A stretch of 64,000 bases of DNA from contig RQOL01000828.1 in NCBI GenBank assembly GCA_013076295.1, positions 5,773,840 to 5,837,839 on the forward strand. The letters run 5' to 3'. The position numbers and the translations under genes were made by a program. Shown here in pieces: positions 7,784-59,893 of this stretch. Every line of letters begins with the position of its first letter. The stretch's first letter is position 1. The stretch is from Sanderia malayensis (taxonomy: Eukaryota > Cnidaria > Scyphozoa > Semaeostomeae > Pelagiidae). Below the pieces are notes generated by a model. It did not search any database. It was not told the DNA's origin and saw only the letters and a list, made by a program, of their open reading frames with translations.

Positions 7784-7802
7784 AATTGGTGACAGGAGCA
7801 AA
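7784..7802 (+). promoter_or_regulatory. Gypsy-1 primer-binding region
   Basis: Directly after the LTR comes AATTGGTGACAGGAGCA. The other Gypsy copy (minus strand, just inside its 5' LTR at 49158-49142) has the same AATTGGTGACAGGAGCA. TGG at this place is the usual complement of a tRNA CCA end. I could not name the tRNA from memory. Confidence 0.6.
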
Positions 7803-7816
7803 AGACCAAACCAACA

Positions 7817-8731
7817 ATGGCAAATATTATCCCAGAGCGTTTTAGTGAAGGGAATTTTGATACTTGGTTAAAGCATTTTCATCGTTGTGCTCTTGCCAAT
7901 GGCTGGGATACCGATGCCAAACGCCTAGCCAAATTGCCCGCCTTCTTACATGGCCATGCAGCAACGTATTATGATTCACTGGAGGCAGGCGAGAAAGATA
8001 CTTTTGCTCACTTAACAGCCAGTCTACGTCAGTGCTTCACCCCGGCTGTGGATCGTGAACGACATTATCGTGCCTTTGAAGAATCTACCCTGCGGCCATC
8101 TGAAGATCCAACACTGTTTTTGTGGCGTTTAAAAGCGTCACTCACGGATGCCGAGCCGGATTTATCTGCCGATGCCTACGATGCGTTGTTAAAACGACAG
8201 TTCATGAAAGGCCTTCCAGCAACCATCCAAATGAAGCTTTTGGAAACAGAGCCCGTGCCAACTTTGGATGCTATGGTATCTTTCGCCAAACGCTATCGGG
8301 CAATCGAGACGTTGCCTCGGGGAAAATCCGACTTCGCCATTTGCGCCACTGGCCCCGTTGAGCCCCCCGTGGCTGTGGCCGCCCTCCAAACTCAGCAGGA
8401 GCAGCAGCAACAACAAATTGCCAAGCTGACTGACATGATGACAGCCCTCACCTCCGGTCAAGCCGACCTCGTGGCCGCTTTGGCGGCGCCTACCCCTGCC
8501 GTGCCCACACCCCGCACCAACGGTGTGCGTTGCTTCAGATGCCGCCGAGAAGGCCATATTGCCCGCCAGTGCCCGTCAGCCGCTGCCCGATGCCCCGTGT
8601 GTTCCGGCTGGGGACACACGGCCAATGAATGTGCCACCAACCGCCGAAGGGGATGGAGAGAAAGAGAACAAGAAAGCCAAGAAGATCGTAGTAAGTCATT
8701 GTCTTTAAACTATCAAGGGGTGCCTCGCTAA
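7817..8731 (+). CDS. gag: Gypsy-1 Gag
   Basis: 304 residues. The N-terminal two thirds is a retrotransposon capsid-like region with the conserved core LRPSEDPTLFLWRLK. A Gln-rich stretch follows (~190-205). Two CCHC zinc knuckles, CFRCRREGHIARQC (from residue 239) and CPVCSGWGHTANEC (from residue 259), would bind the RNA genome. The ATG at 7817 lies 34 nt after the LTR. The stop TAA (8729-8731) overlaps the ATG of pol by one base. The slippery site 8704-8710 lies just before the stop. It is 40-50% similar by eye to the Gag of the second Gypsy copy at 48189-49136. Confidence 0.95.
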   Translation: MANIIPERFSEGNFDTWLKHFHRCALANGWDTDAKRLAKLPAFLHGHAATYYDSLEAGEKDTFAHLTASLRQCFTPAVDRERHYRAFEESTLRPSEDPTLFLWRLKASLTDAEPDLSADAYDALLKRQFMKGLPATIQMKLLETEPVPTLDAMVSFAKRYRAIETLPRGKSDFAICATGPVEPPVAVAALQTQQEQQQQQIAKLTDMMTALTSGQADLVAALAAPTPAVPTPRTNGVRCFRCRREGHIARQCPSAAARCPVCSGWGHTANECATNRRRGWREREQESQEDRSKSLSLNYQGVPR

Positions 8732-8755
8732 TGGGCTGGAGCGAACAGCACCCCT
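8704..8755 (+). promoter_or_regulatory. -1 ribosomal frameshift signal between gag and pol
   Basis: The heptamer T TTA AAC (8704-8710) lies in the gag frame exactly as a -1 slip requires. Pol is in the -1 frame, open from the heptamer through its first ATG. Five nt downstream starts a stem: 8716-8723 (AGGGGTGC) pairs with 8748-8755 (GCACCCCT). An inner stem 8725-8729 (TCGCT) pairs with 8740-8744 (AGCGA), with a 10-nt loop. The gag stop lies in this structure. The second Gypsy copy keeps the same geometry with compensatory pair changes (48169-48206). U UUA AAC is a known efficient eukaryotic -1 slippery sequence. Confidence 0.85.
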
Positions 8756-11700
8756 CTGTATTTTCTGTTGGAGATACTTCTGTTTCCCCCTCAGCTCAAA
8801 CGTTTTATTCTGCTCGCCAACCCTTGCTATTTTGCGAAATTTCCAACATTGGGGTATCTGCACTCATTGACACAGGTTCAATGAAGTCTATTATCAGTTC
8901 GGCTGTGTTTCAGCAAATCTCTGAAAACTGTAAACAGCGCAACCAGCCATGCCCCATTCTCAGAAGTATTTCCAACACATGTATTTCTATTACGGGACAA
9001 CCTTTGAACTCTTTGGGCTCAGTGGTTGTATCCCTTAAATTCCCGTGTAGTGATTTGTGTTATTCGGGCGAATTTATAGTGTGTGACAATGTACTGCAAA
9101 ATCTTCAATGCGTCTTGGGATGGGATTTTCTCACCTCCAACCTGCTACAGCTAGCTACCTTAGGAAATTCTTATTGTCTTGTTGGGTCGCATGGTAGTAC
9201 CCCATTAATTCCGTTACCAGACTCTGTGCGCAGGCCACCACCTGGGTTTACAGCATTTTCCAGTTCACCCCCCCGGGAGGGCCAATTACCTGTATTTGTA
9301 CAGTCCACTGATCATGGATCAGCTTTTGTGACCTCGCTGAATGACGTAGTTATACCAAGTCGTACTGAGTGTGTTTTTCAGGCCCGAGTGCCTAAGAGTT
9401 GTGATAGTCAGTTAGGTATGATTTGTAATTTAAACGAGCCTTCCGAAACGGCTTTTTATACAGCGTATGCGGTTACTCAAGCAAACGCGCGAAATGTTTT
9501 TGTTCGACTTTTGAACACTTCTAACGTTGATATCGAGCTACACAAAGGCGAAAAAATTGCTAAATTTTGGCCCGTCATACAGACCGCCCATCAGACCCAC
9601 CAAAACACGTTTGATAATATTATTGGTGCCAGTTTACCTAATTGTCCTAAATTAGATTCACAAACAATAGCTGAGTTAGAAGCCGCCATCAGTCCTGACC
9701 TTGAAGACCACCAGAAACAACAAATCCGGGAGACATTGTTAGCTTTTCCGGATGTATTTAACAACGAACTTGGACATACCACAGTCGTGTCCCATCGAAT
9801 TAACACGGGGGATTCTACACCCATTCGTCAGTATCCCAGACGATTGCCTTTTCATTTTCGTGAAGAAGTTAATACTCAGGTCTCAGATATGTTGAAGCAA
9901 AATGTTATACAGCCTAGTATTAGCCCATGGGCTTCACCTGTCGTGCTCGTCAAAAAGAAGGACGGCACATATCGCTTTTGCATTGATTATCGAAAAGTAA
10001 ATTTAATAACGAGACAGGACGCCCATCCCTTGCCTCGCGTGGACGACCTACTTGATTCATTGAGCGACAATAAATATTTTAGCACTTTAGATTTACGCAG
10101 TGGATACTGGCAGGTCAGCATGTCACCGGATGACCGAGAAAAAACAGCATTTATCACACCCGCCGGCCTATTCGAATTTCTACGGATGCCCTATGGCTTG
10201 TCGACTGCTCCTGCAACGTTTGCTAGAGCAATAGGAATAATTTTATCCGGCTTAACATACGATATCTGTCTTTGCTACTTTGACGATGTCATCATTTATG
10301 CGAACTCTATTGAACAACAGTGTGCACGTCTCAAAACTGTTTTACAACGTTTCCGTGAACACAATATCCGCGTAAAAGCCTCAAAATGCTCCTTTGCTGC
10401 TAAAAAAGTCGTCTACCTAGGCCATACTGTTTCTAGTACCGGTGTACACACTGACCCGAATAAAATCAAAGCGGTGCGTGATTTGCCAGCCCCCACAACT
10501 GTAGAAAAACTTCGATCTTTCCTGGGTTTAGCGGGCTATTATAGGCGCTTCATCCCAAATTTTGCTACTATTGCCTCGCCCCTCACTGCTCTCACCAAAA
10601 AGAACATGCGTTTTAAATGGACTAGCTCACACCAAACTGCATTTGACAACTTGAAACAACTACTTTGTTCAGCGCCAGTTTTGGCCTACCCTAATTTCGA
10701 CTTGCCTTTTACATTACAAACCGATGCTTCAAACGTGGGTCTTGGCGCTGTGCTTACTCAGTATGATGAACAAGGGCATGAGCATGTTATTTCTTACGCA
10801 AGCTATACTCTATCACCGCGCGAGCAAAATTACGCTGCCATGGAAAAAGAAGCCTTAGCCATTGTATTTGCTACCAAACATTTCCGGGCGTACTTAGTGG
10901 GACGGGAATTTCAAATTGTGACTGATAACCACGCGTTAAAGTGGCTGCATTCAATCGAACCCAAAGGTCGCATTGCGCGGTGGATTATGGACCTCCAGGA
11001 ATTTCAATTCACCGTAAAACATCGACCGGGCGCATCAAACCAAAATGCAGATGCTCTTTCTAGACTAAACCACTATACAGTCACAGCCTCGAAGCCAATT
11101 AGCCCTGATATTCCTGACATTAGTGGTTTAGTTAATTTAACACCTGACGTAGATTTGTGTCAAGCCCAGCGTTGTGATCCAGCTATTCAAATTGTCAAAG
11201 CCTTGATTGAGCAAAAGTTGCCTAAACCACCTCTATTTGTCTGGCAAAACAATTCGCAACTGCGACCATTTTGGGACTGTTGGGACCACCTGTATATTAG
11301 TAAAGGCCTGTTAGTCAAAAAACGAATTTCTAAACAAGGTTTTAACCGCGAATTACTAGTCATTCCGGACGGTTTAGTTCCCCGCGTGCTTGATGGCTTA
11401 CATAACTGCCCATCAGCTGGCCATATGGGAATAACACGCACGATTTTGCGCGCAAGAGAGCGTTTCTTTTGGCCCAGAATGAACTCTTCCATCAAACAAT
11501 TTATTCATCAATGCCAAAAATGTAGCCAAGTAAAACATGATTCGAAGCAAACCAAAGCACCGTTGAAGCCAATCCAAGTTAGCGAACCCTTTGTTTTTTG
11601 GGCTGTCGATTACATGGGGCCAATTTCCGAAACAGCTCGCGGCAATAAGCACATTCTTGTCCTCATGGACCATTTCACTAAATGGTGTGAGGCATTCCCA

Positions 11701-12588
11701 ACACCAGACCAAAAGGCCTCTACGGTGGCACAAACCCTTGTATCGCGCGTATTTTCTCGTTTTGGTCCACCATCTATATTACATTCTGATCAAGGTCGAA
11801 ACTTCGAAAGCAACTTAATGCACGAAATTTATAATATCATGGGCATTAAGAAGTCTCGGACTACTGCATACCACCCGCAGGGAGACGGATTAGTCGAGCG
11901 ACAAAATCGCACGCTACAGGAAATTCTTACTAACTTTGTCTCAGAACATCAGGGGGACTGGGACCTATGGTTAGATCAAGCTGTTTTCGCCTATAACACC
12001 AGTATACAAGAGTCGACGGGGTTTTCACCATATGAGTTAGTATTTGGACATCCTGCGCGCATGCCTATCGAAGTGGAACTTAGCGTACCATTGCAAAATG
12101 TAAATAGCCAATCCGATTATAGTCGATCATTACGGAAAGCAATACAGTTAGCCAACCAGTTAGCACAGAAAAACCTTGAGACGGCTAGAAATAGACAAAC
12201 AACATCGTATAACCAAGGTCACAAAGACTGGAAACCTTATGAAGTTGGACTTAGTGTTTGGTTGCGTCGCCCTAAGAAATGGAAATTCGGGACGAAGTGG
12301 ACTGGACCGTTTGAAATAGTTTCCAGGACAGGGGTTAATTATAGAATTCGATCCAGTGATGGGAAAACCAGGGTAGTCCATCACAACCAAATTAAGTTAT
12401 GCCCCACCCCGCTGGATCAGGGTCAAATCTTTCATCCGGTATCCGAAACCCCAGGTATAACCATTTCAGAACGTGATGACCTGCGCAACCCAGAAGAGGT
12501 TGGGATTAATGAACCTACTGCCAGACCACCCCGCCTTCGCCAAGTTATTCAACCACCCCAGCGCTTTGGAGAATTTGTGGTGCATTGA
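8731..12588 (+). CDS. pol: Gypsy-1 Pol polyprotein (PR-RT-RNaseH-IN)
   Basis: 1285 residues from the ATG at 8731. In practice it is probably made as Gag-Pol by -1 frameshifting at 8704-8710. Aspartic protease: DTGS at residue 47. Reverse transcriptase: YFDD at 516-519, with LDLRSGYWQ upstream. RNase H: TDAS, Asp 665. Integrase: HHCC zinc finger (HMGITRT...CQKCSQ), then catalytic Asp 960, Asp 1020 (HSDQG) and Glu 1056 (GLVERQ), with the usual 35-residue spacing. A GPFEIVSRTG motif (GPY/F type) and a short tail follow. All catalytic residues are present. The usual Gypsy pol is of similar length. Confidence 0.95.
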   Translation: MGWSEQHPSVFSVGDTSVSPSAQTFYSARQPLLFCEISNIGVSALIDTGSMKSIISSAVFQQISENCKQRNQPCPILRSISNTCISITGQPLNSLGSVVVSLKFPCSDLCYSGEFIVCDNVLQNLQCVLGWDFLTSNLLQLATLGNSYCLVGSHGSTPLIPLPDSVRRPPPGFTAFSSSPPREGQLPVFVQSTDHGSAFVTSLNDVVIPSRTECVFQARVPKSCDSQLGMICNLNEPSETAFYTAYAVTQANARNVFVRLLNTSNVDIELHKGEKIAKFWPVIQTAHQTHQNTFDNIIGASLPNCPKLDSQTIAELEAAISPDLEDHQKQQIRETLLAFPDVFNNELGHTTVVSHRINTGDSTPIRQYPRRLPFHFREEVNTQVSDMLKQNVIQPSISPWASPVVLVKKKDGTYRFCIDYRKVNLITRQDAHPLPRVDDLLDSLSDNKYFSTLDLRSGYWQVSMSPDDREKTAFITPAGLFEFLRMPYGLSTAPATFARAIGIILSGLTYDICLCYFDDVIIYANSIEQQCARLKTVLQRFREHNIRVKASKCSFAAKKVVYLGHTVSSTGVHTDPNKIKAVRDLPAPTTVEKLRSFLGLAGYYRRFIPNFATIASPLTALTKKNMRFKWTSSHQTAFDNLKQLLCSAPVLAYPNFDLPFTLQTDASNVGLGAVLTQYDEQGHEHVISYASYTLSPREQNYAAMEKEALAIVFATKHFRAYLVGREFQIVTDNHALKWLHSIEPKGRIARWIMDLQEFQFTVKHRPGASNQNADALSRLNHYTVTASKPISPDIPDISGLVNLTPDVDLCQAQRCDPAIQIVKALIEQKLPKPPLFVWQNNSQLRPFWDCWDHLYISKGLLVKKRISKQGFNRELLVIPDGLVPRVLDGLHNCPSAGHMGITRTILRARERFFWPRMNSSIKQFIHQCQKCSQVKHDSKQTKAPLKPIQVSEPFVFWAVDYMGPISETARGNKHILVLMDHFTKWCEAFPTPDQKASTVAQTLVSRVFSRFGPPSILHSDQGRNFESNLMHEIYNIMGIKKSRTTAYHPQGDGLVERQNRTLQEILTNFVSEHQGDWDLWLDQAVFAYNTSIQESTGFSPYELVFGHPARMPIEVELSVPLQNVNSQSDYSRSLRKAIQLANQLAQKNLETARNRQTTSYNQGHKDWKPYEVGLSVWLRRPKKWKFGTKWTGPFEIVSRTGVNYRIRSSDGKTRVVHHNQIKLCPTPLDQGQIFHPVSETPGITISERDDLRNPEEVGINEPTARPPRLRQVIQPPQRFGEFVVH

Positions 12589-47974: not shown

Positions 47975-48212
47975 AACGGTGGGACAATGTTTTGCTGTGT
48001 ACAGCTCTGAAAAATGCGTTGGAAAGCATCAAAACTCAAAATAGATTGCATTGACCCTGTGTCAACAAGAGCTGATAACTGTACACCAGTAAAATTACAA
48101 GAAACAAGGGGTTGGCAAGGAACTAGGGCACGTGGGGCAACAGAAGTAGTTCCAAAAGCAAAAGTAGTGGGATGCTCATCACTCCAACCTAATAGTGAGG
48201 CATCCCCTGAAA
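47975..48212 (-). pseudogene. Gypsy-2 protease fragment
   Basis: In the -1 frame relative to gag, the minus strand reads GWSDEHP, then QLSALVDTGSM with the aspartic protease DTGS, then a TGA stop at about residue 85 of pol. The ITGQPL motif follows. After ~47890 the sequence jumps to the pre-integrase region, which marks the deletion junction. Confidence 0.8.
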
Positions 48213-48219
48213 TTTTGAA
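48169..48219 (-). promoter_or_regulatory. Gypsy-2 gag-pol frameshift structure with decayed heptamer
   Basis: Outer stem 48206-48200 (GGGATGC on minus) with 48175-48169 (GCATCCC); inner stem 48198-48194 (TCACT) with 48183-48179 (AGTGA); 10-nt loop; 1-nt and 3-nt joints. This is the same geometry as Gypsy-1. The aligned slippery site is T TCA AAA (48219-48213), one T-to-C away from a functional TTTAAAA. Confidence 0.75.
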
Positions 48220-49136
48220 GGAAACTTACGATCTGGTTGTTGACGTAGATCAGATTTTGGCTGAGATGAATCAAAGTTATTCGCACAGTTCTGTGGATGA
48301 TGGCCCCAGCCATTGCAAAGGGTACATTTCGGCGCTCTTTGACGTTTGTGGCAATTCCGGACGATATGACCAGGTTCACCACAGAAGAAACAGCAAACAG
48401 AAGAACCAGGACGACGAGGAGGTATGACAAAAGATGGTTGACGAGTAGCTGATGACGAAATTGCAGCGATCAAACTAGCTTGTCCTTCAGCGAGCTTGCT
48501 CAGTTGGCCAGTAACGTTATCCAGCTGTAATTGTTGTTGTTGTGGCTGTTGTAGTTGTTGTTGCTGGGACACAGGTTGATCCGCCAGGGCCAAGGGGCGA
48601 GTGGCAACAGCGGCACATGCAGTGGCAGGGCTGGTGGGCAACCGTTGGAGGGAACGAAACCGCTGAGCAAATGACGTCATTATGGCCAAGGTTGGCGTGG
48701 GATCAGATTCTAACAATTTCAATTGTAGTTCTTCTGGCAACCCTTTAAAGAACTGTCGGCGTAGTAAGGCATCAAAAGCCTGTCCAGATAAATCCGGTTC
48801 AGCGTTCCGAAGTGATTCTTTCAAACGCCAAAGGAAGAGCGTGGGATCCTCTGCGGGGCGAAGGCGATGGTCTTCAAACTCTCGATAATACCTCTCACGG
48901 TCAGTTGGAGGGCAAAAACACCTGTGCAGGCTGGCGATCAAGCTGTCCAGAGATGTTTTATCCCAATCTGAGAGGGTTTCATAGTATGTGGCGGCCGGAC
49001 CATCGAGAAAGGCTGGAAGCTTTAGGAGTTGTGTTTCGGTATTCCATTTGTTAGCGGCAGCACATCGCTGAAACTGACGAATCCAGACCCCAAAATCCCC
49101 AGAAGTAAAAGGAGTTGGTAAAATGCTTGAAGCCAT
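48189..49136 (-). CDS. gag: Gypsy-2 Gag
   Basis: 315 residues from ATG at 49136, chosen because it lies just after the primer region and aligns with the Gypsy-1 start; the frame is open further upstream into the LTR. Core motif LRPAEDPTLFLWRLK, then a Gln-rich region, then zinc knuckles CCFFCGEPGHIVRNC and CTLCNGWGHHPQNC. It ends in a TAG inside the frameshift stem-loop. Gag could still be made, and might act in trans with an intact relative. Confidence 0.92.
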   Translation of the reverse strand: MASSILPTPFTSGDFGVWIRQFQRCAAANKWNTETQLLKLPAFLDGPAATYYETLSDWDKTSLDSLIASLHRCFCPPTDRERYYREFEDHRLRPAEDPTLFLWRLKESLRNAEPDLSGQAFDALLRRQFFKGLPEELQLKLLESDPTPTLAIMTSFAQRFRSLQRLPTSPATACAAVATRPLALADQPVSQQQQLQQPQQQQLQLDNVTGQLSKLAEGQASLIAAISSSATRQPSFVIPPRRPGSSVCCFFCGEPGHIVRNCHKRQRAPKCTLCNGWGHHPQNCANNFDSSQPKSDLRQQPDRKFPSKFQGMPHY

Positions 49137-49158
49137 ACCTGTGCTCCTGTCACCAATT

Positions 49159-49443
49159 TGTAGGGTGGCTGGGTAAAGCACGTATAACTCAAGAGAACAC
49201 AAGATGTTGCTTGCTCGAGATCAATCATTCAACTAAAATACTATTATAATTTTACCTAAGTTAAAACAATCATAATATGACACATCAATCAATAGTGACA
49301 GCAACAACGGATATAATATAGACAAACGACACGGTCACAAGTACATCACAGGAAAACAATATAACTAACACGAACATGATTCTACGTCTAATATATTAAC
49401 ACAGACATGATACAATTTATACTTACGCAATCATAATATTACA
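49159..49443 (-). repeat. Gypsy-2 5' LTR
   Basis: 285 bp, the upstream LTR in the minus orientation. The adjacent AATTGGTGACAGGAGCA (49158-49142 on minus) is the primer region shared with Gypsy-1. Confidence 0.9.
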
Positions 49444-49447
49444 GCAG

Positions 49448-50516
49448 AAGAAATTTGACTCTGGAAGTCAGAAAAGTTACATAACAGAAGATTTAGCAAG
49501 AAAGCTTAACTTGCCTGTTAAGAAAACAAGTAATTTAAATCTAAACACGTTTGGTTCGGAAAATTATGTCAAGAAAAGTAGCAAACAGGTTACAGTAAGC
49601 TTAGAAATAGGGGATGAAGTTCTTCCGATAACAGTGCATAGCCTGCCACAGCTTTGTTCTCCAATCACGACGCATATTAATACTAACGCTTATCCGCATT
49701 TGCAAGGTATCAAGCTCGCTTGCGACGCAACAAATAGTCCTAAATCAGTCACTATGATTATCGGTGTAGACTATTACTATAGTATTGTTCTTGGAGAGAT
49801 CAGAAAAGGCAGTTCAGGTCCAGTAGCGTTACAGAGTAAACTAGGCTGGTTATTGTCCGGACCTACCTGTGTTGAATACGAAAACAATAATTGCTCTAAT
49901 GTCATTACTAGTCTTGTTATAGAAGTTTTGCCCCCAACAGAAGAAATTGTTAACGAGAATCAAGAAATTGTCGAATCTTTAGGCAAATTTTGGAAACACG
50001 AAGCCTCAGGGCTAACATTGCCACACGAAGACGAAATCACGAAGAAGAAGATATTCGACATACGAAAAAAGGATGGAAGGTACGAGGTAAGCCTTCCTTG
50101 GAAGGAGAATATTATAGAACCGTTAACCTCTGATTTAGATTTATGTCGTGGTAGATTAACGTCCTTGTATAACAAATTAAAGCTTAAACCAGATCTTTTA
50201 CAACAATCTGATGATATTTTTCGAGATCAACTTGCTTCAGGCATAATTGAAAAAGTAGCCCCCGAGGAGGAGAATAAAGACGGAGCTCATTTTTTGTGTC
50301 ATTTCGGCGTAGCCCGTAGCGATAGAGAAACAACGAAGTTACGCATTGTTTTTGATGGTTCGGCAAAATCGAATGATTCGTCGTTGCCGCTTAACGATAG
50401 ATTAGAAATAGGAACCAATCATATGTCGTTACTATTCGATACTTTAGTTCGTTTCCGTACACACCCTTAACCGCAGACATTGAGAAAGCATTCTTACAAG
50501 TCGGTATCAATGAGTC
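49448..50516 (+). pseudogene. pol: BEL protease and first half of reverse transcriptase
   Basis: Protease core FDSGSQKSYI at the start (Asp-Ser-Gly), then IIGVDYYYSIVLGE and the GPVALQSKLGWLLSGP motif typical of BEL protease-RT linkers. RT begins around GVARSDRETTKLRIVFDGSAK. A frameshift near 50468 separates this from LTADIEKAFLQVGI, which runs to the transposon insertion at 50516. Confidence 0.88.
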
Positions 50517-50835
50517 TAGACAGGGAATTTATCATAACATTCTAGCAAATCGGGTAACGGAAAATCTGAAGGCAGTTCTGGTATCTGTGAGGGAAGGCGG
50601 TCATTTTAAGCCTTGGGAACATTCTGGCAAATTAGCCATTGTGACGTAATCGATGACGTCATGTGACCACGGTCACAAGAAATCCGACCTCCAAATATCC
50701 GACCCTTGATTAGTTCATTGGAAAGAGTATCAAAAAGCGAACAAATAATTATAAAACACTAATATAATTTGACTTATATTTCGAGAGATACGGCCATTTC
50801 AAAAGTGTCAACAAATTCAAAATGGCGGATAGCAA
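50517..50835 (+). repeat. left TIR of Academ-like transposon
   Basis: 319 bp from TAGACAGGG to GGCGGATAGCAA, the inverse of 56480-56797. It contains a CRE-like TGACGTCA (near 50653) and GTGACCACGGTCAC, a short palindrome. Confidence 0.92.
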
Positions 50836-51006
50836 AATTCTGCTCGATTCAGATATCTGAACCGAATTAAACGAATGGGGGTTTATTAATGCAATAAAAC
50901 ATCATTATTAATGCAATAAAACAGTTAAATAATGAACAAAACATTTAAATGGAAGCTACTGACCTGAAATTAATGCTAAGTATAAAGACCAAATTTGATT
51001 GTTACG

Positions 51007-54000
51007 TTATGGAAGCCATTCATCCAAGGAATCGTCACTTGAAGAGAAATCAGATACTTCCCACACACTTTCTTCATCATAATAATAAAAAAATTCTGGC
51101 TCTTCTGTTCTGCTTACTGCGCTTTCCTTATCACCCTCATCACTTCCGTCGTACATTTCTACATCTGTGCCTACTTGCTTGGGCAAAACAATGTGACTCG
51201 CTTCGAACTTTCTTTTCCTTCTTGGTCTTTTCTTTTGCTTGTTGCTACCATCATCACTCATTTCCGAATCTGCTTCTTGTGGGTCTCGCTGCTTATCCCC
51301 CAACTTCTTTGGATTCCTATTCAATGACAGAAATGGGGGCAATTGTTTCCCTTTAAACCAAACAGGCACAACAAGCTGGGCTTCTTCATCCCATTTCCAC
51401 CCATTCATTTCCATTGAAGCATCTGGCATCATCATTTCCGCGCAGCGAAGCCAGTGAAATAGCTGGTAATTTGCTCTTTTGATTGCTTCTTCAGCTGAAT
51501 CTGGATCCGGAGGAATGGCACTTGACGACTTCACTTTCAATTCTTTGTAAATACGCAATCGGGTCGTGACATACGTTTCAGTTGTCTTTCCATTGTAGAA
51601 CACGGTTCTAATGAACTCCTTCACTTTTTCTAATTCAGACACTTGGATAGTTGTTGCTTTTCCTAACCCTTCTAATAGACGACATTTTTCTGGTGCGTTA
51701 AGCAACTTTTTCAAAACTTTAACTTTTCCAACCTTAAAAAAGTAGGACGTTGTGTCGCATCCGGACAGAGCATGGATTGCTGGCAAGACATTGCACATGT
51801 CAGGTCCGATAGCATCGCAGATTCCTCCTATGTCAACAAACTTGTCATTATCATACTTTAAAAGCCACTTTCTTGTTATGTCTAGCTTGCTAAATGCCCA
51901 TACAAGAAGTATCAGGACATCTGTGTCTTTCGAAACTACGACCGTGTCTGTATCTGCTAAAGATGCGTGTAGAACAAGGCGCGTGTCTGCTTCCTCGTGA
52001 TTGCATTCATGAAGAACTTTGGAGCTGTTTCTGTCAATAACACGAGTGAGTGACCCTTCTGTCATGATGAATGGCTGCTGCAATCACCTTCTTCCTTCTT
52101 CACTTTGAATGTAATTGAAGATTAATTTTATCAGCTCTTCTTTGTTTTTTCCATTCTGTAAAAACTCATTCCAATTTGCTCCCTGGGGCATGTGCTGATC
52201 GAAACCTTCTAGCCTGACAGTTAATCCTGTCTCTCCACGAGCTTTTCTTGTGCTGCTCTTTACACTTCGCTCCCTATACGTATCGTTGATCATCCCAACA
52301 ACAGATGGTGTTGACCATTCAGGTGGCCGCAGAAAACGAAGCAAACCGATAATCCACTCCCGGTAAGTTTTTTTAGATTTCAATGTTCTTACTGCTGCAA
52401 GTCCATCAACGAACCATGCTGCATTTTGGGAGGAGTGCTTGTTGACAATTTCGATTTGGAGATCAATAGATTTCGTAGCGAGGCTTTATCTGACTGTCGA
52501 AGTGAACCATCGGGATTGGCTAAAGCAAGGGGAACTGATGTGATAGGGAAGCAAAAAGAATCCTCCAAACTCGTTGCTTTCGCTAAAATGAGGCCAAACG
52601 CCTGGCAATCTTCTTTTAATACTGATACGGCTTTCATGGGTGGCTTTTTCTTTATTATTCCAGTGTTGAGCTTGATTTTCTTTATTGGGTCATAGAAGCT
52701 TTGCCTGTGGCTCACAAGTCTGTCAGAAACAAAAGCTTGGAAGGCAACACTTCCAACATCGTGAGCTTTCAGCATATCCTGAATAACGGATGCACTAATT
52801 TGAGCACCGGAGTGAAAACATTTTGGAGCTTCAGCCGAAAAAGGATCCGTCCCATAGCCTTGCAATACCGATTTTAATTTAGATACATGTTTGTCGTGCA
52901 AACGCCTGCCACTGTTCGTCGTTTCTTTATGCTTGGAGGAAAATTTGATTTGGAGCTGCTTTCTCAACGCTATTCTCAACATGCTGTGAATATGGATCGT
53001 ATGCACCCATGTGTTGACCGTGCCAAGACTTGTACTAAAGCCTGATCTGAAGGGTCCAGCAGTACCTTTGGTCTCTTTATTAAAGAGCTCGGTAATTAAG
53101 TCGCCATGTATCGTCGAGAATGCACCACCAGTAATACTTCCGCCGTGTCCTTTCGCTTGCAAGTCGTGAAATGCAGGATGCTCTTTCCTTTTGAGTTCTT
53201 GGAGACTTACATGCTGGAAACTGCAGTAGCGGGCGTAGTTTTGGTGATCAAAACCAAATGCTAGGGAAATCATCTCTCGCTCTGCTACCAAATGTCTCTC
53301 TATGTTGCATTCCCGAACTGACGAAATAAGAGCAAGCATCACTGATACATCTTTCAAATATTGCACTGTGAATTGGCCATCACTTCCTTCTTCATGATAT
53401 AGAACTCTTTTCCACAAGACAGCGAACTGGGGCAAGTCCATTAAGGCACTCATCGTGGAAGGAGACGGTTCTTTGCGCAGTGCTGTTATTGCCGACATAA
53501 TATCACAATCTGTTTTCGAGTGGCCATCTAAAAAACAATATATACAACACACATGTAAGGTATAAGAAATCTTGAATTTATTGTCAAATATGAAGTGGAT
53601 ACGAACAATGACACTAACCTGTAATTTTTTCTATCCGAAACTGTACAAGCGCATCAAAACATTCTTTGTGCAGCCGCATGCTCCGAAAATAGTGTCTCCC
53701 TTCAAAAGCTGAGTCAGCCGAGCCTGGGGCGATAACTTCTGCATCAATGCACCACTCCTTGATTCCTCTACAGCTATACCGTTTGAACAAAAGTCTCTGC
53801 GCTACGCGAACCTGATGGAATCCCCCCATAAGAAGCACAACACGTTTGTACAGTTCAGGGTTTTTCCACATGATGGCACACAGCTTAGAATATACCATCT
53901 GATCGGAATGGACAAACATGTATGGTATTTCCGGCTCTTCTATCATATCCAGCAGAAAATCTAAGTAATATTTACATACGGGGAACTCTGGCGGGTGAGG

Positions 54001-56046
54001 GGTGACGGGCAAGTACTCCTGTACACACATTTCTGTTTCATGAGTCGTAACCATCTTATTGAATGGTGTCCAAGATCCCAAAAGAGGCAAATCTTCAGAT
54101 TTAATTGAACCAGCCAATGACCACGCAATGTCTCGTTTGAAGCACTCGTCCAACAAGTCCCTGCTACTTGAATCAATGAAGTTTGGAAATGCCGGTGGGT
54201 CGACTCGCCGTCCAATATTGTAAGGTGCAATCTCTGAAATTTCTTCATTGCGCTCTTCATCAATATCGAGTGGTCTCTGGAGAGTGCCGATAACTGGAAT
54301 GTGTAGCCTCTCATCTTTACTTGGTAACTGAAAAACGGTTTTATTTGTGTCATGTGTCGTTCCAGACCCAGTTCATGTGTCTTGTCTCCCATCGTTGTTG
54401 TCAATTGTGCTATGCGTTACGACACCTCGTCTAAAAGAGGGTATGGAGCTTTTTTGCGGAAAGACCATCCTTGACCAAGCTTGGTTTTGCATCCTGATAT
54501 TGTTGTATGACATCACGTGGTTACATTTGTGTAGTGTATTGATAACTTCTTTATTTCCTTAGAAAAATTATAGAATTTCATGTTAATATTCAAATTTAGT
54601 TCTGAAAGTGAGAGTTCATTCGAGGGTTGTTCATTGGAGATGTGGGAGTCAGTAGAGAAAATGCATTGCCTCTGATTCCGAAATAGAGAAATTAGATAAA
54701 TTACTCTTACCTGTTAGCCTGTGAAGAACCAAACCCATGATTGCTTGCTTGGGCGAAGGAACTTTTGTCAATAACGATTCCCAGTCACTTGCCAAGGACC
54801 AAATTTTTGTTGCCTTTACTCTCGAAGTGACTGCGTAGCCATACTCATTTATTGTAGCGCTATCATGCATTGAATAAAATATTGCATTGTACAGTTCGGG
54901 TAGCGGTCCTTCATCCAAACTTTTAATAAATTCTTCGGAGGTGAGTGGAAAGTCGTATCTTTGCTTCTGCTTGAGCTTTATTTTCTCCCTGATCATCCGC
55001 CCAAAAGCTCTGACGTGATCTTCACTGCGTAATCCACAGCCATGAAGGGTTGCAACCGAGTACTCACAAGGATTTATATCAGTACTATGGACTATACGAT
55101 AAATTCCCGAAGGAAAGAACCCAATTTGATCTCCCAGTTCCTTTTCCAGCAGTCGTCGAAGAGATTTGGTTTCAGTTATAGCTGGTCTTTCAAGGTGCTG
55201 TTCTTCGCTGAGAAACTGAATATCTGTTAAAAGCTCATTTAGGAGGAAAGCTTTCTTGTCCCGTATGACGGAAGTTTTAACTCTATAAAGAAACGCATTT
55301 ATGACATCCTCTTCTTTCCCTTTCTTTTCGTCCTCTTCCCTCTCTCTTTGAGATAGAGGTTTTATCGCAAACTTTATGTAACATGACTGATGATAGAAGA
55401 TATCCACTGCAAATATGTCATGGGCTTGGCCACTCAACAGAAGATCCAATCGCCTCGCTGAAACAAAAAATCGATGGGTCTTTTCTTTAAGTAACAGCTC
55501 TTTTCGGGCAAATAATTTACTTGCAGTTGAATCAGTGTCGCACCTTCTTAAACCACCTTCGTCGTATGGATGCTTGTCACTAGATCTAACAGTGTTACAT
55601 ATGAAACAAATATACTTTGAAGAAACTGATTCGGTTTCTGATCGTGTTGCTCTTTTCTTAGGTGAATTACTTGCTGCTGTCTGGCCTTTCTCGGAGTCTG
55701 AATCACCCCCTTCTTCTGCAATATCAATGACTGAATAGCCAAATTTCTTGCGGTACCGTGTGCTATTATTTCGAAAAGCAACTCTACAATTAGTATGAAC
55801 ATAAATTGAAGCATTCTGAGATTCTCTTGAAACGATTTTTCCGTAAACCTCTGTGTATGGATGTCTTTCATCGTGAAGAGGAACGTTTATTTGCGACCAT
55901 TCTTCAGCTATGGCTATAAAATTAGTTCTTCCTTTTTCCCCAATTTCCTGGCTTTTCTCTGTTTTTTTGATAACACGATTGCAAATCATACAAACATTAT
56001 TTTTCGTTTGTACGTCAGTACTAAGAAATGCTTTAGAAAGACTCAT
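51007..56046 (-). pseudogene. Academ-like transposase fused to XPG/FEN1-like nuclease, three exons
   Basis: Exons 56046-54711, 54557-53619 and 53527-51007, joined by GT-AG introns of 153 and 91 nt in matching phase, give ~1600 codons. Exon 1 has two Cys/His clusters (CMICNRV...HTNC; CFICNTV...HQSC). Exon 2 has VHSDQMVYSK and MGGFHQVR, which I take as transposase core. Exon 3 ends with the nuclease: HEEADTR, SKDTDVLILL and HALSGCDTTS carry the acidic metal-binding residues, then an acidic tail. Breaks: TGA at 54375-54373, a 1-nt frameshift near 52430, TGA at 52086-52084. Everything else is intact, so decay is recent. The type of transposase fold is inference. Confidence 0.85.
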
Positions 56047-56479
56047 TCTTCAATACTAAGACATCTTTCAAAGCCAGCATGTATCTACATTTTGAATTAA
56101 TTTGACTCGCGTCCCAAATAGCATAAATCTGTTGTTCTAAAGGAAAGACTGCTCACCTCACAGAGCGTGTTTCTGATAAATAGAAAGCATTTCTACCACA
56201 CATGGTGTTTTGAGGGTGGTGTGCTTAATACAAAGTGACACTTGTGACTTTTCACGGAGGTAGGATTGAAAGGAAACTCAAAACCCACCATCAAACATGG
56301 GAAGCCATTATTGTATTGATTAAGTGTGAACAGAAACAACGGTTAATGCAAGCAAATAATATCATTTCTGGTAACAATTTTTAGAAAATTATGATTTCTC
56401 TGACAAATCTGACATGTCAGAATTCATCATTCGTGCTATATTGACAATTATTGGCTGACAAATTGACTTGTTCTGAGAA

Positions 56480-56797
56480 TTGCTATCCGCCATTTTGAAT
56501 TTTTGACACTTTTGAAATGGCCGTATCTCTCGAAATATAAGTCCAATTATATTAGTGTTTTATAATTATTTATTCGCTTTTTGATACTCTTTCTAATGAA
56601 TTAATCAGAGGTCGGATATTTGGAGGTCGGATTTCTTGTGACCGTGGTCACATGACGTCATCGATTACGTCACAATGGCCAATTTGCCAGAATGTTCCCA
56701 AGGCTTAAAATGACCGCCTTCCCTCACAGATACCAGAACTGCCTTCAGATTTTCCGTTACCCGATTTGCTAGAATGTTATGATAAATTCCCTGTCTA
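56480..56797 (-). repeat. right TIR of Academ-like transposon
   Basis: 318 bp, inverse of 50517-50835, ending CCCTGTCTA. The transposase start (56046) lies 434 bp inside, so this TIR probably contains or abuts the promoter. Confidence 0.92.
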
Positions 56798-56800
56798 GTC

Positions 56801-58823
56801 CGACAGAGACACGTTACGATTTTTATGGTTCGATGACGCAAAAGGTTCTAATCCGAAAATCGTTCAATATCGATACAAACGTTTATTATTTGGTCTCACA
56901 AGCAGTCCCGCTCTATTGGCGGAAACAATTCGTTACCACGTAAAGGGGTATCAGGATACGCATCCGGAGGTAGTTAAAATTCTTAGTCGTTTGTATGCAG
57001 ACGATCTTTCTTGCGGCACTAACGATCCAAAGAAGGCTCTAGAGATATATCGCAATTGTAAAGAAATCATGAGTCAAGGTGGTTTTAATTTACGTAAATG
57101 GAATAGCAATGATCAGGCATTGCTTCAAGAAATCAATTCTATTGAAAACAATAATGAATCATCCAGCAAGCCCAAGGGCACCGTCATTGAGGACGATCAG
57201 ACTTACACGCAATATGCCATAGGGGCTCCTCAAAGTAAAGGAAATTCGAAGGTTTTAGGAGTTTGCTGGAATAGTCTTTAAGATCGTTTAAAGTTCGATT
57301 TATCGAGTATTCTAGAATTTGCACAGACTCTGATACCCACAAAGCGTTCTCTGCAAAAATTAGCAGCTAAGATTTTCGATCCCATTGGTTGTTTAACTGT
57401 TTTTACCATCAACTTGAAAATTTTGTTTCAGCAATTGTGTGTTGATAAGCTGGGTTGGGATCAAGAATTGCAGGGATCGTATCGTAAATCGTATGACGCG
57501 TTAATTAAAGATCTCAAATTATGTAATAACGTATCAATCCCAAGAGGTCTTTTACAAGGTAATCAATCCGTTCGGAAGGTAGAATTACATGGTTTTTCAG
57601 ATGCGATTGAAAGGGCTTACGCAGCCGTAGTTTAAGTCAAAGTCGACTATGAATCAGGGTTAATCGATGTTAGATTTGTCACGTCAAAATCGAAGGTATG
57701 TCCGATTCGTCAACAAAGCATACCACGATTAGAATTATTGGGAGCTTGCTTGTTGGCTGACTTATTTAACACAATTCGTCTAGTTTTGAGCGAAGAACTA
57801 AAAAACATCTCGCTGGACACCTATTATTGGGTAGATTCTAGTGCTGTGTTATGTTGGATCCGTAATGTGAAGCCTTGGACACAATACGTTCGTCATCGAG
57901 TTTCACAAATTTTTTCTACGTCAGAAAGAGAACAATGGTCACATTACCCGGGATCGCAGAATCCCGCAGATTTGCCGTCACGTGGTATCTATTGTCATCT
58001 CGATGACAACCTATTGTGGTGGGAGGGTCCTCAATTTCTGAAACTAGAACCCTCAGAATGGTCTAAAACCCCAGGCAGTACAGAGTTAGAAACAGAACTG
58101 GCCTTGAAAGAGAAAGTGAAATCAGAGCCAATTATTACGCATGCAATGCTTGCAGAAGGAAGTCAGTTGAAAAACAATTGGAGTCAAGTCATAGACTTAG
58201 AGAGATTTAGTAACAAAAGTAAGCTGTTGAAAGTAGTGTCATGGGTGTTCAGATTCATTTATAATTTGAAAGCCAAGGTAAAACAAAAACACGTAACCCT
58301 AGACAACATAGTTAGCGTAGAAGAGATAAATTCAGCAGAAAACGTATTGATCAAGTTCATCCAACTAGATAGTTTTGAATCGGAAATTCGTTATTTGTCA
58401 TTAAGCTCAGCAGGTAGAAATAACGTCAAGGTACCTCCACACGTCAACCAGTTTAATCTCTATTTAGACGAAAACGGTATAATTCGTTGTAGATCTCGAG
58501 TAAGTAAGGCATCGTTGCCAGATGAAAGTAAAAAACCGATCTTATTACCGTCGAAATCTAAATATTCTGTTTTATTAATTAACGATTGTCACGAGAAGGT
58601 GTTTCACAACGGTTTAAGAGAAACGTTGAACCTACTTAGACAGAAATACTGGGTACTGCGGGGAAGAGAACGAGCAAAGCAGGTTGTTCGTCAATGCAGT
58701 GTGTGTAAAAAGATCGAAGGTCTACCGTACAAAACAGTGTTCTGCCCAGAATTACCGAAAGTTAGAGTGGATGAAGATTCACCGTTCACACATGTAGGAA
58801 TAGATTTTGCAGGACCACTGTAA
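56801..58823 (+). pseudogene. pol: BEL reverse transcriptase (second half), RNase H and integrase N-terminus
   Basis: RT resumes at DRDT and includes RLYADDLSCG, the catalytic pair Asp-Asp. A stop at 57279-57281 and another at 57633-57635 interrupt RNase H (HGFSDAIERAYAAVV, WVDSSAVLCWI, HYPGSQNPADLPSRG). The integrase zinc finger follows (HNGLRETLNLLRQKYW...CSVCKK) and then HVGIDFAGPL, with the first catalytic Asp, before a stop at 58821-58823. Confidence 0.88.
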
Positions 58824-58879
58824 AGGACATTGTAAAGAGTAATTCGAATATTCAAAACCAGGAAAATGCCAAATCTTAC

Positions 58880-59893
58880 GTGTGTTTATTTACGTGTACT
58901 TCAACAAGAGCCGTACATCTTGAATTGGTTGAAAACCTAACTGTTGAAGCTTTCATTTGGGCATTTCGTCGCTTTTGTGCACGACGCGGTTTACCAGCTA
59001 CAATTATTAGTGATAACGCTAAGACATTTAAATCCGCTTCGAAGGAAATCAAGAGATTGGTTCGCACTCCTCGTTTGAAAGAGTATTTTGTAACAAAAGG
59101 CGTCAAGTGGAAATTTATAGTTAAATTAGCACCCTTTCAAGGGGGATTTTGGGAAAGGTTAACACGAAGCGTTAAACGTTGTTTAATCAAGATAATCGGT
59201 CGCGCATTATTAAGTTTTACCGAGTTGAATACAATTCTCGTTGAAATTGAAAGTGTAGTGAATTCTCGTCCATTGACTTACGTATTCGATGATAACGAAG
59301 GGATCACGTACCCTTTAACACCGTCCCATTTGATTAACGGTCGAAACTTAAACCGGTTACCCAATGACGCATACTTCGAGATTCGTAACACGTACGAAAG
59401 TTTGTCAAAACGTGCGCAGTATAATCATAGATTGTTAAATAAGTTTGCTCTATTGTGGAAAAACGAATATCTGCTAGGTCTTTTAGAAGCGTACCAACCG
59501 AAAGGAAAGGAGAACTCGTCAAGCAATCCCATAATTAACTTGAATGACATCGTTGTTGTCAGGAACGAACAGGAGAAAAGGACATTCTGGAAAATTGGTA
59601 AAGTCATCAAATTGATAGTTGGGAATGATGGCTCGACGAGATCAGCCCAGGTAGAGGTAAGTTCAAAAAATGGTAAGACAGTGCTGAAACGATCCTTAAA
59701 ACACCTAGTTCCGTTAGAAATACGTAGTCAGAGTAGTCAGTCAGATACACAACAGCAACAAGCGCCACCGCAGCAACAAGCGCCGCAGCAGCAGCAAGCG
59801 CAGCCGCCGGCGCCAGCCACGTTGGAGTCCAGCAGACCTCGCAGGAAGGCTGCTGTGGTCGGAGAACTCATCCGAAAGAACAACGTTATCTAA
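58880..59893 (+). pseudogene. BEL integrase core and Gln/Pro-rich tail
   Basis: Open frame of 337 codons: TSTRAVHLELV, ISDNAKTFKSA (second Asp), PFQGGFWERLTRSVK (Glu in the GGFWER motif typical of BEL integrase), then a DUF5641-like region (RTFWKIGKV). It ends in Gln/Ala/Pro repeats (about 59749-59820) and a basic end. Separated from the preceding piece by a stop and ~55 nt of out-of-frame sequence. Confidence 0.88.

Follow-up and report, generated by a model that had tools for sequence, protein, structure and literature searches.

The element and its insertion site

We analyzed a 64,000-nucleotide stretch of the Sanderia malayensis genome (assembly GCA_013076295.1, contig RQOL01000828.1, forward-strand positions 5,773,840 to 5,837,839), which we refer to as the window and whose own coordinates we use throughout. 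A preliminary description had recognized an Academ-like transposon there, and we found that this element is 6,281 bp long, has borders that can be read directly in the sequence, ends in terminal inverted repeats (TIRs) and carries its gene on the minus strand. The element is inserted into an older BEL-type retrotransposon:

50517–56797, minus strand: whole element, delimited by its borders, TIRs, the BEL frame and empty sites
50514–50516, no strand: left copy of the target-site duplication GTC (direct reading; paralogous empty sites)
56798–56800, no strand: right copy of the duplication GTC (same evidence)
50517–50835, plus strand: TIR adjoining the 3′ end of the gene, first letters TAGACAGG
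56480–56797, minus strand: TIR adjoining the 5′ end of the gene
49400–50516, plus strand: host BEL-type frame on the left side, which has a frameshift of its own near 50.46 kb
56801–59893, plus strand: host BEL-type frames right of the insertion

The BEL-type reverse-transcriptase frame is cut by the element, and when the flanks are joined through one GTC the frame is open across the site. In three BEL paralogues of the same genome the site is present but empty. Left- and right-flank matches overlap by exactly 3 bases at two of them (L057 and L058), and the left flank of the interrupted BEL copy aligns to both over 147 columns for 140 bases. The third (L059/L060, one place with two matches) shows a split left flank, and neither match includes the middle base of the three. 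These findings bear out the borders and the 3-bp duplication that had been proposed from the interrupted frame. The two TIR arms are identical at 311 of 319 aligned columns, in keeping with the earlier estimate of about 319 bp; the ungapped arms comprise 306 nt and are 96% complementary.

A gene predicted to encode a transposase fused to a nuclease

The coding sequence extends from 56046 to 51007 and is divided among three predicted exons that together measure 4,796 nt including the stop, or about 1,600 codons, as had been proposed. Both predicted introns are bounded by GT..AG and lie in phase 1.

54711–56046, minus strand: exon 1, N-terminal region with two CxxC...H-x(2,3)-C motifs (55992–55978, 55800–55786, 55608–55594, 55395–55381)
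54558–54710, minus strand: intron 1, 153 bp, phase 1, GTAAGAG...CTAAG
53619–54557, minus strand: exon 2, DDE aspartates 1 and 2 (54400–54402, 53902–53904) and a GGFH motif (within 53812–53826)
53528–53618, minus strand: intron 2, 91 bp, phase 1, GTTAGTG...TTTTAG
51007–53527, minus strand: exon 3, DDE catalytic glutamate (53088–53090), XPG/FEN1-like nuclease, stop codon
51754–52407, minus strand: XPG-like active-site residues D 52405–52407, D 52282–52284, E 51991–51993, D 51985–51987, D 51925–51927, D 51919–51921 and D 51754–51756 (places read in the window; columns and fold from relatives)
54373–54375, minus strand: lesion, in-frame stop in exon 2
52084–52086, minus strand: lesion, in-frame stop in exon 3, with a frameshift upstream near 52.42–52.43 kb

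Three intron-free relatives from the same genome (L050–L052) align to all three exons in order at 31–44% identity by segment, and this alignment reveals three lesions, the number noted before: the exon 2 stop, the exon 3 frameshift and the exon 3 stop. We regard the window element as a damaged representative of a type of transposon that is already known.

All three DDE and all seven XPG acidic residues remain legible in the window copy, and the nuclease residues presumably correspond to FEN1 positions. A glutamate in an AEGS motif (column 398) was tried as the third member of the DDE triad and rejected, because it is kept in 20 of 38 aligned rows whereas column 579 is kept in all 38. Structure models were made from relatives of the window protein. 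The predicted transposase fold of one relative is nearest to the P element transposase, with hAT and RAG1/Transib in the same fold group, and together with the D-D-E columns of the alignment it indicates a DDD/E-type transposase. The modeled nuclease domain of a relative matches, among others, EXO1, FEN1, XPG/Rad2 and GEN1 at 9–15% identity and contains the acidic metal-binding residues, so that XPG-family nuclease activity is predicted. The sequence and these models support a single intron-containing gene whose product joins a DDE transposase to an XPG/FEN1-type nuclease, as the preliminary description had suggested.

The one-protein layout is common among relatives

When we searched the genome with the transposase stretch we found at least 153 matches (150 of 249 candidates scored), with the nuclease at least 102 (100 of 1,286 scored), and with 324 bases of one element end at least 41 (40 of 76 first-look candidates scored). 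The family is very large in this genome and these counts are lower bounds; the last of them answers the earlier question of whether other copies with such ends exist.

Among the transposase-stretch matches listed, at least 11 contain open frames of 1,451–1,624 residues. L050, a complete element from a different lineage, has a single frame of 1,607 residues, TIRs of 283 bp (277 of 283 identical) and the duplication AAA; frames of 1,624, 1,551 and 1,451 residues are found in L051, L052 (open at the end of the locus; duplication TTA) and L053. All four thus carry the one-protein layout as an uninterrupted frame.

Two protein-database searches gave 46 and 125 matches (120 of the 125 listed), and the few named relatives are those of corals and fishes, of a sea cucumber and of a sea spider. 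One further named relative (P0083) is from a bacterial metagenome bin (Sedimenticola sp.), where it probably represents host DNA. Among 71 proteins no shorter than 1,380 residues, 59 have two CxxC...H-x(2,3)-C motifs in their first 420 residues (0.07% of shuffled copies) and 67 have at least one (5% of shuffled copies). Ten catalytic acids across both domains are all kept in 58 of the 59 long proteins aligned, which were chosen by hand from the 71 with no selection rule. Among 75 family members, the nuclease columns are occupied and the active site is kept in 70–72, a share that is biased upwards because these rows were hand-chosen from 162 proteins and the queries contained the nuclease; the conservation of the active site across 20–25% identity is free of that bias. 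The layout of transposase and nuclease in one protein is therefore the norm among the relatives seen and no novelty. The preliminary description had singled out this layout and the very long TIRs as possible marks of a poorly described lineage, and neither is supported; L050, of another lineage, has TIRs of 283 bp.

Separately, four sea spider glutamate-receptor gene models (P0024–P0027) contain a stretch with 63% identity to the transposase family across 16% of the query; a transposon was probably annotated there as part of the gene. Coral relatives among P0032, P0096, P0097 and P0101 carry the name Tesmin/TSO1-like CXC proteins; the C-terminal tail of P0032 is cysteine-rich, and the window protein has no such tail.

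Introns mark the window lineage

To compare the two intron sites we used 30 loci with alignments across one or both of them (L045 is the same place as L052, and L047 the same as L050). Inserts at the sites are present in six loci, which represent four distinct copies of the window lineage. L039 carries an intron at site 1 and L041 at site 2, both being 60–61% identical to the window in the transposase stretch. The other 22 loci (20 distinct places) have 0–3 extra columns at the sites and hence no intron, among them L024 and L026, which are 62–63% identical in the transposase stretch. This pattern indicates gain, or else repeated loss, of the introns in one sub-branch inside this genome, and what distinguishes the window lineage is the possession of introns that relatives this similar lack. 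Copies of a repeat were considered as a source of the introns and rejected, as each intron matches only five places, all of them copies of the window lineage.

Decayed copies and recently moved derivatives

Five places carry the introns of the window lineage, and all five copies are interrupted: besides the window, L009 contains stops and frame changes, L010 an insertion, L011 an insertion of about 3.1 kb in exon 1 (L011:909–4036), and L012 stops and an inner rearrangement. L009 and L010 have their flanks in common and represent a segmental duplication. Five fold-back derivatives (L013–L017) are 2.9–3.2 kb long and have arms of 1.22–1.29 kb that are 96.9–98.7% identical within a copy and derive from the nuclease end of the gene. 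Their TIRs are 90–93% and their bodies about 87% identical to the window element, which makes them a sister group. L013 and L014, at different sites, are identical except for 1 of 3,193 positions, and each is 99.2% identical to L017; the group has therefore moved recently. The earlier suggestion that close relatives may be active is thus supported in part: these derivatives moved recently, but all five intron-bearing copies are interrupted.

Duplications were tested for insertions with both ends (L019, L051 and L053 have one end, and L010 was dropped as the duplicate of L009). A 3-bp duplication flanks 9 of 12 distinct insertions: GTC in the window, TAA in L011 and L014, TTT in L015, ATA in L016, TAT in L017, AAA in L050, GTA in L012/L006 and TTA in L052/L054.

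A palindrome at a fixed distance from the ends

Both TIRs contain the palindrome TGACGTCA:

50654–50661, no strand: TGACGTCA, 137 bp from the element end
56653–56660, no strand: TGACGTCA, equivalent place in the other TIR

Genome-wide, TAGACAGG is followed by TGACGTCA within 115–145 bases at 234 sites, as compared to 2 for the reversed pattern. A spacing of exactly 129 bases accounts for 175 sites (control 0), and 84–113 bases for 13 (control 1); the sites are not independent, as many of them belong to the same family, either as further copies or as opposite ends, and copies were not collapsed. Clearly different TIR sequences are represented among the sites listed. The palindrome lies 137 bases from the end in the window, L038 and L040, 136 in L052 and 152 in L050, and the TIR of L051 has none. 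It may be a transposase-binding site or a host ATF/CREB site.

Proposed mechanism and alternatives

Taken together, these data make it probable that the window element is the decayed copy of an autonomous DNA transposon from the AcademX branch of Academ, which most likely moved by cut-and-paste with a transposase and a flap or second-strand nuclease in one protein. A single protein of about 1,600 residues would recognize the TIRs through its zinc-finger-like N-terminal modules. The D-D-E RNase-H transposase, with an all-helical insertion and a fold like those of the P-element, hAT and RAG1 transposases, would cut the ends and join their 3′ ends to the target at positions staggered by 3 bp, and the fused XPG/FEN1-type 5′ nuclease would then cut the non-transferred strand or trim 5′ flaps at the joints. 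A more specific version is possible, though we hold it only tentatively: the P/RAG1-type transposase would perform the 3′-end chemistry, the EXO1/FEN1-type nuclease rather than the transposase would remove the second strand, and the common subterminal TGACGTCA would be bound by the transposase or let host ATF/CREB factors switch the elements on.

Several observations weigh against this interpretation. The predicted folds come from models of relatives, and the window protein is 31–42% identical to L050 by segment. Plain Foldseek against the PDB (E ≤ 0.001) returned no match for either model, nor did PDB sequences searched with two profiles, and a PDB search with one protein gave two unrelated matches (E 0.19 and 0.41). 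A Pfam scan of the window's five pieces found nothing above cut-off, with DUF6589 in one piece at E 0.0069, and of L050–L053 only L053 has a Pfam match (DUF6589, E 6e-10); DUF6589 was also matched in P0013 and P0032. Three of the 12 insertions (L009, L013 and L018) have no duplication, and no excision footprint was seen. Finally, the Academ name is based on architecture and duplication length. Literature searches on DUF6589, and on Academ and XPG as whole words, found no papers, and the listed structural matches of the transposase model include no Academ structure, which excludes nothing.

The same protein could instead act in copy-out (replicative) transposition, with the XPG domain resolving branched intermediates as GEN1 does and not trimming flaps. 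The 3-bp duplications are compatible with either route, and the lack of a footprint, the presence of GEN1 and EXO1 among the structural matches and the fold-back arms of 1.22–1.29 kb all fit copying. The P, hAT, RAG1 and Transib transposases of this fold group, in contrast, are known as cut-and-paste enzymes, and we regard copy-out as unlikely.

We give slightly less credence to a superfamily of its own, P/hAT/RAG1-like and as yet unnamed, with an independently acquired XPG nuclease. The classification is based on architecture and duplication length, the transposase model is nearest to the P element, and Pfam knows the region merely as DUF6589. Against this, the nuclease of AcademX is XPG-type and the size of the element is in line with published Academ consensus lengths. 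The published account gives a nuclease with 3–4 bp duplications as the AcademX combination (PMC10045372), and here we found 3 bp at most insertions and a 3-base overlap at empty sites.

It is very improbable that the nuclease end stems from a captured fragment of a host gene and has no role in transposition: the helicase found in its place in another Academ branch shows that the C-terminal part is exchangeable, but we dropped accidental capture on the active-site conservation described above, in both the 75 rows (with their upward bias) and the 58 long proteins that keep all ten acids.

Neighboring retrotransposons

Two other features in the window were named by eye. Beside the BEL element lies a gypsy-type gag-like frame with zinc knuckles (48189–49220, minus strand), the second such frame. 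The first belongs to a Ty3/gypsy-type retrotransposon at 7793–12588, in which a 312-residue gag-like frame is overlapped by a stop-free 1,297-residue pol-like frame.

Comparison with known systems

This work provides a predicted fold for a poorly annotated animal transposase (the DUF6589 region), placed beside the P element, hAT and RAG1/Transib, and shows its conserved fusion with a repair-type nuclease. Open-frame relatives of diverse kinds, derivatives that moved recently and differences in intron presence within the family all occur in one genome, so that the mechanism of transposition and the gain of introns could be investigated there side by side.

On architecture, AcademX appears to be the best name for the window element: a DDE transposase with a nuclease, 3-bp duplications, TIRs and a similar size are common to both, and the difference is the two apparently gained introns of the window sub-branch, AcademX being compared here by its published description. 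AcademH belongs to the same superfamily in the published account, with a helicase and 9–10 bp duplications (PMC10045372). We rejected it for the window element, which has a nuclease and 3-bp duplications, and Pfam found no helicase in L050–L053 or in the five pieces of the window that were scanned. Kolobok was rejected because it duplicates TTAA, whereas the duplications here are GTC, TAA, GTA, TTT, ATA, TAT, AAA and TTA.

The P element transposase (6p5a, 6pe2) is 8% identical to the relative's model. P elements make 8-bp duplications and are not known to have a nuclease domain, and RAG1/Transib and Hermes (hAT) have other duplication lengths and no known XPG domain; membership of P or hAT, with their 8-bp duplications, was rejected on the 3 bp found here. 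The C/DxxH motif of hAT and P is GxxH in the window family. Pfam DUF6589, labeled as of unknown function, covers part of the transposase in relatives, and we interpret it as belonging to the DDE transposase. The C-terminal domain shares its fold and its active site of seven acids with EXO1, FEN1, XPG/Rad2 and GEN1, but in the window family this nuclease is fused to a transposase.
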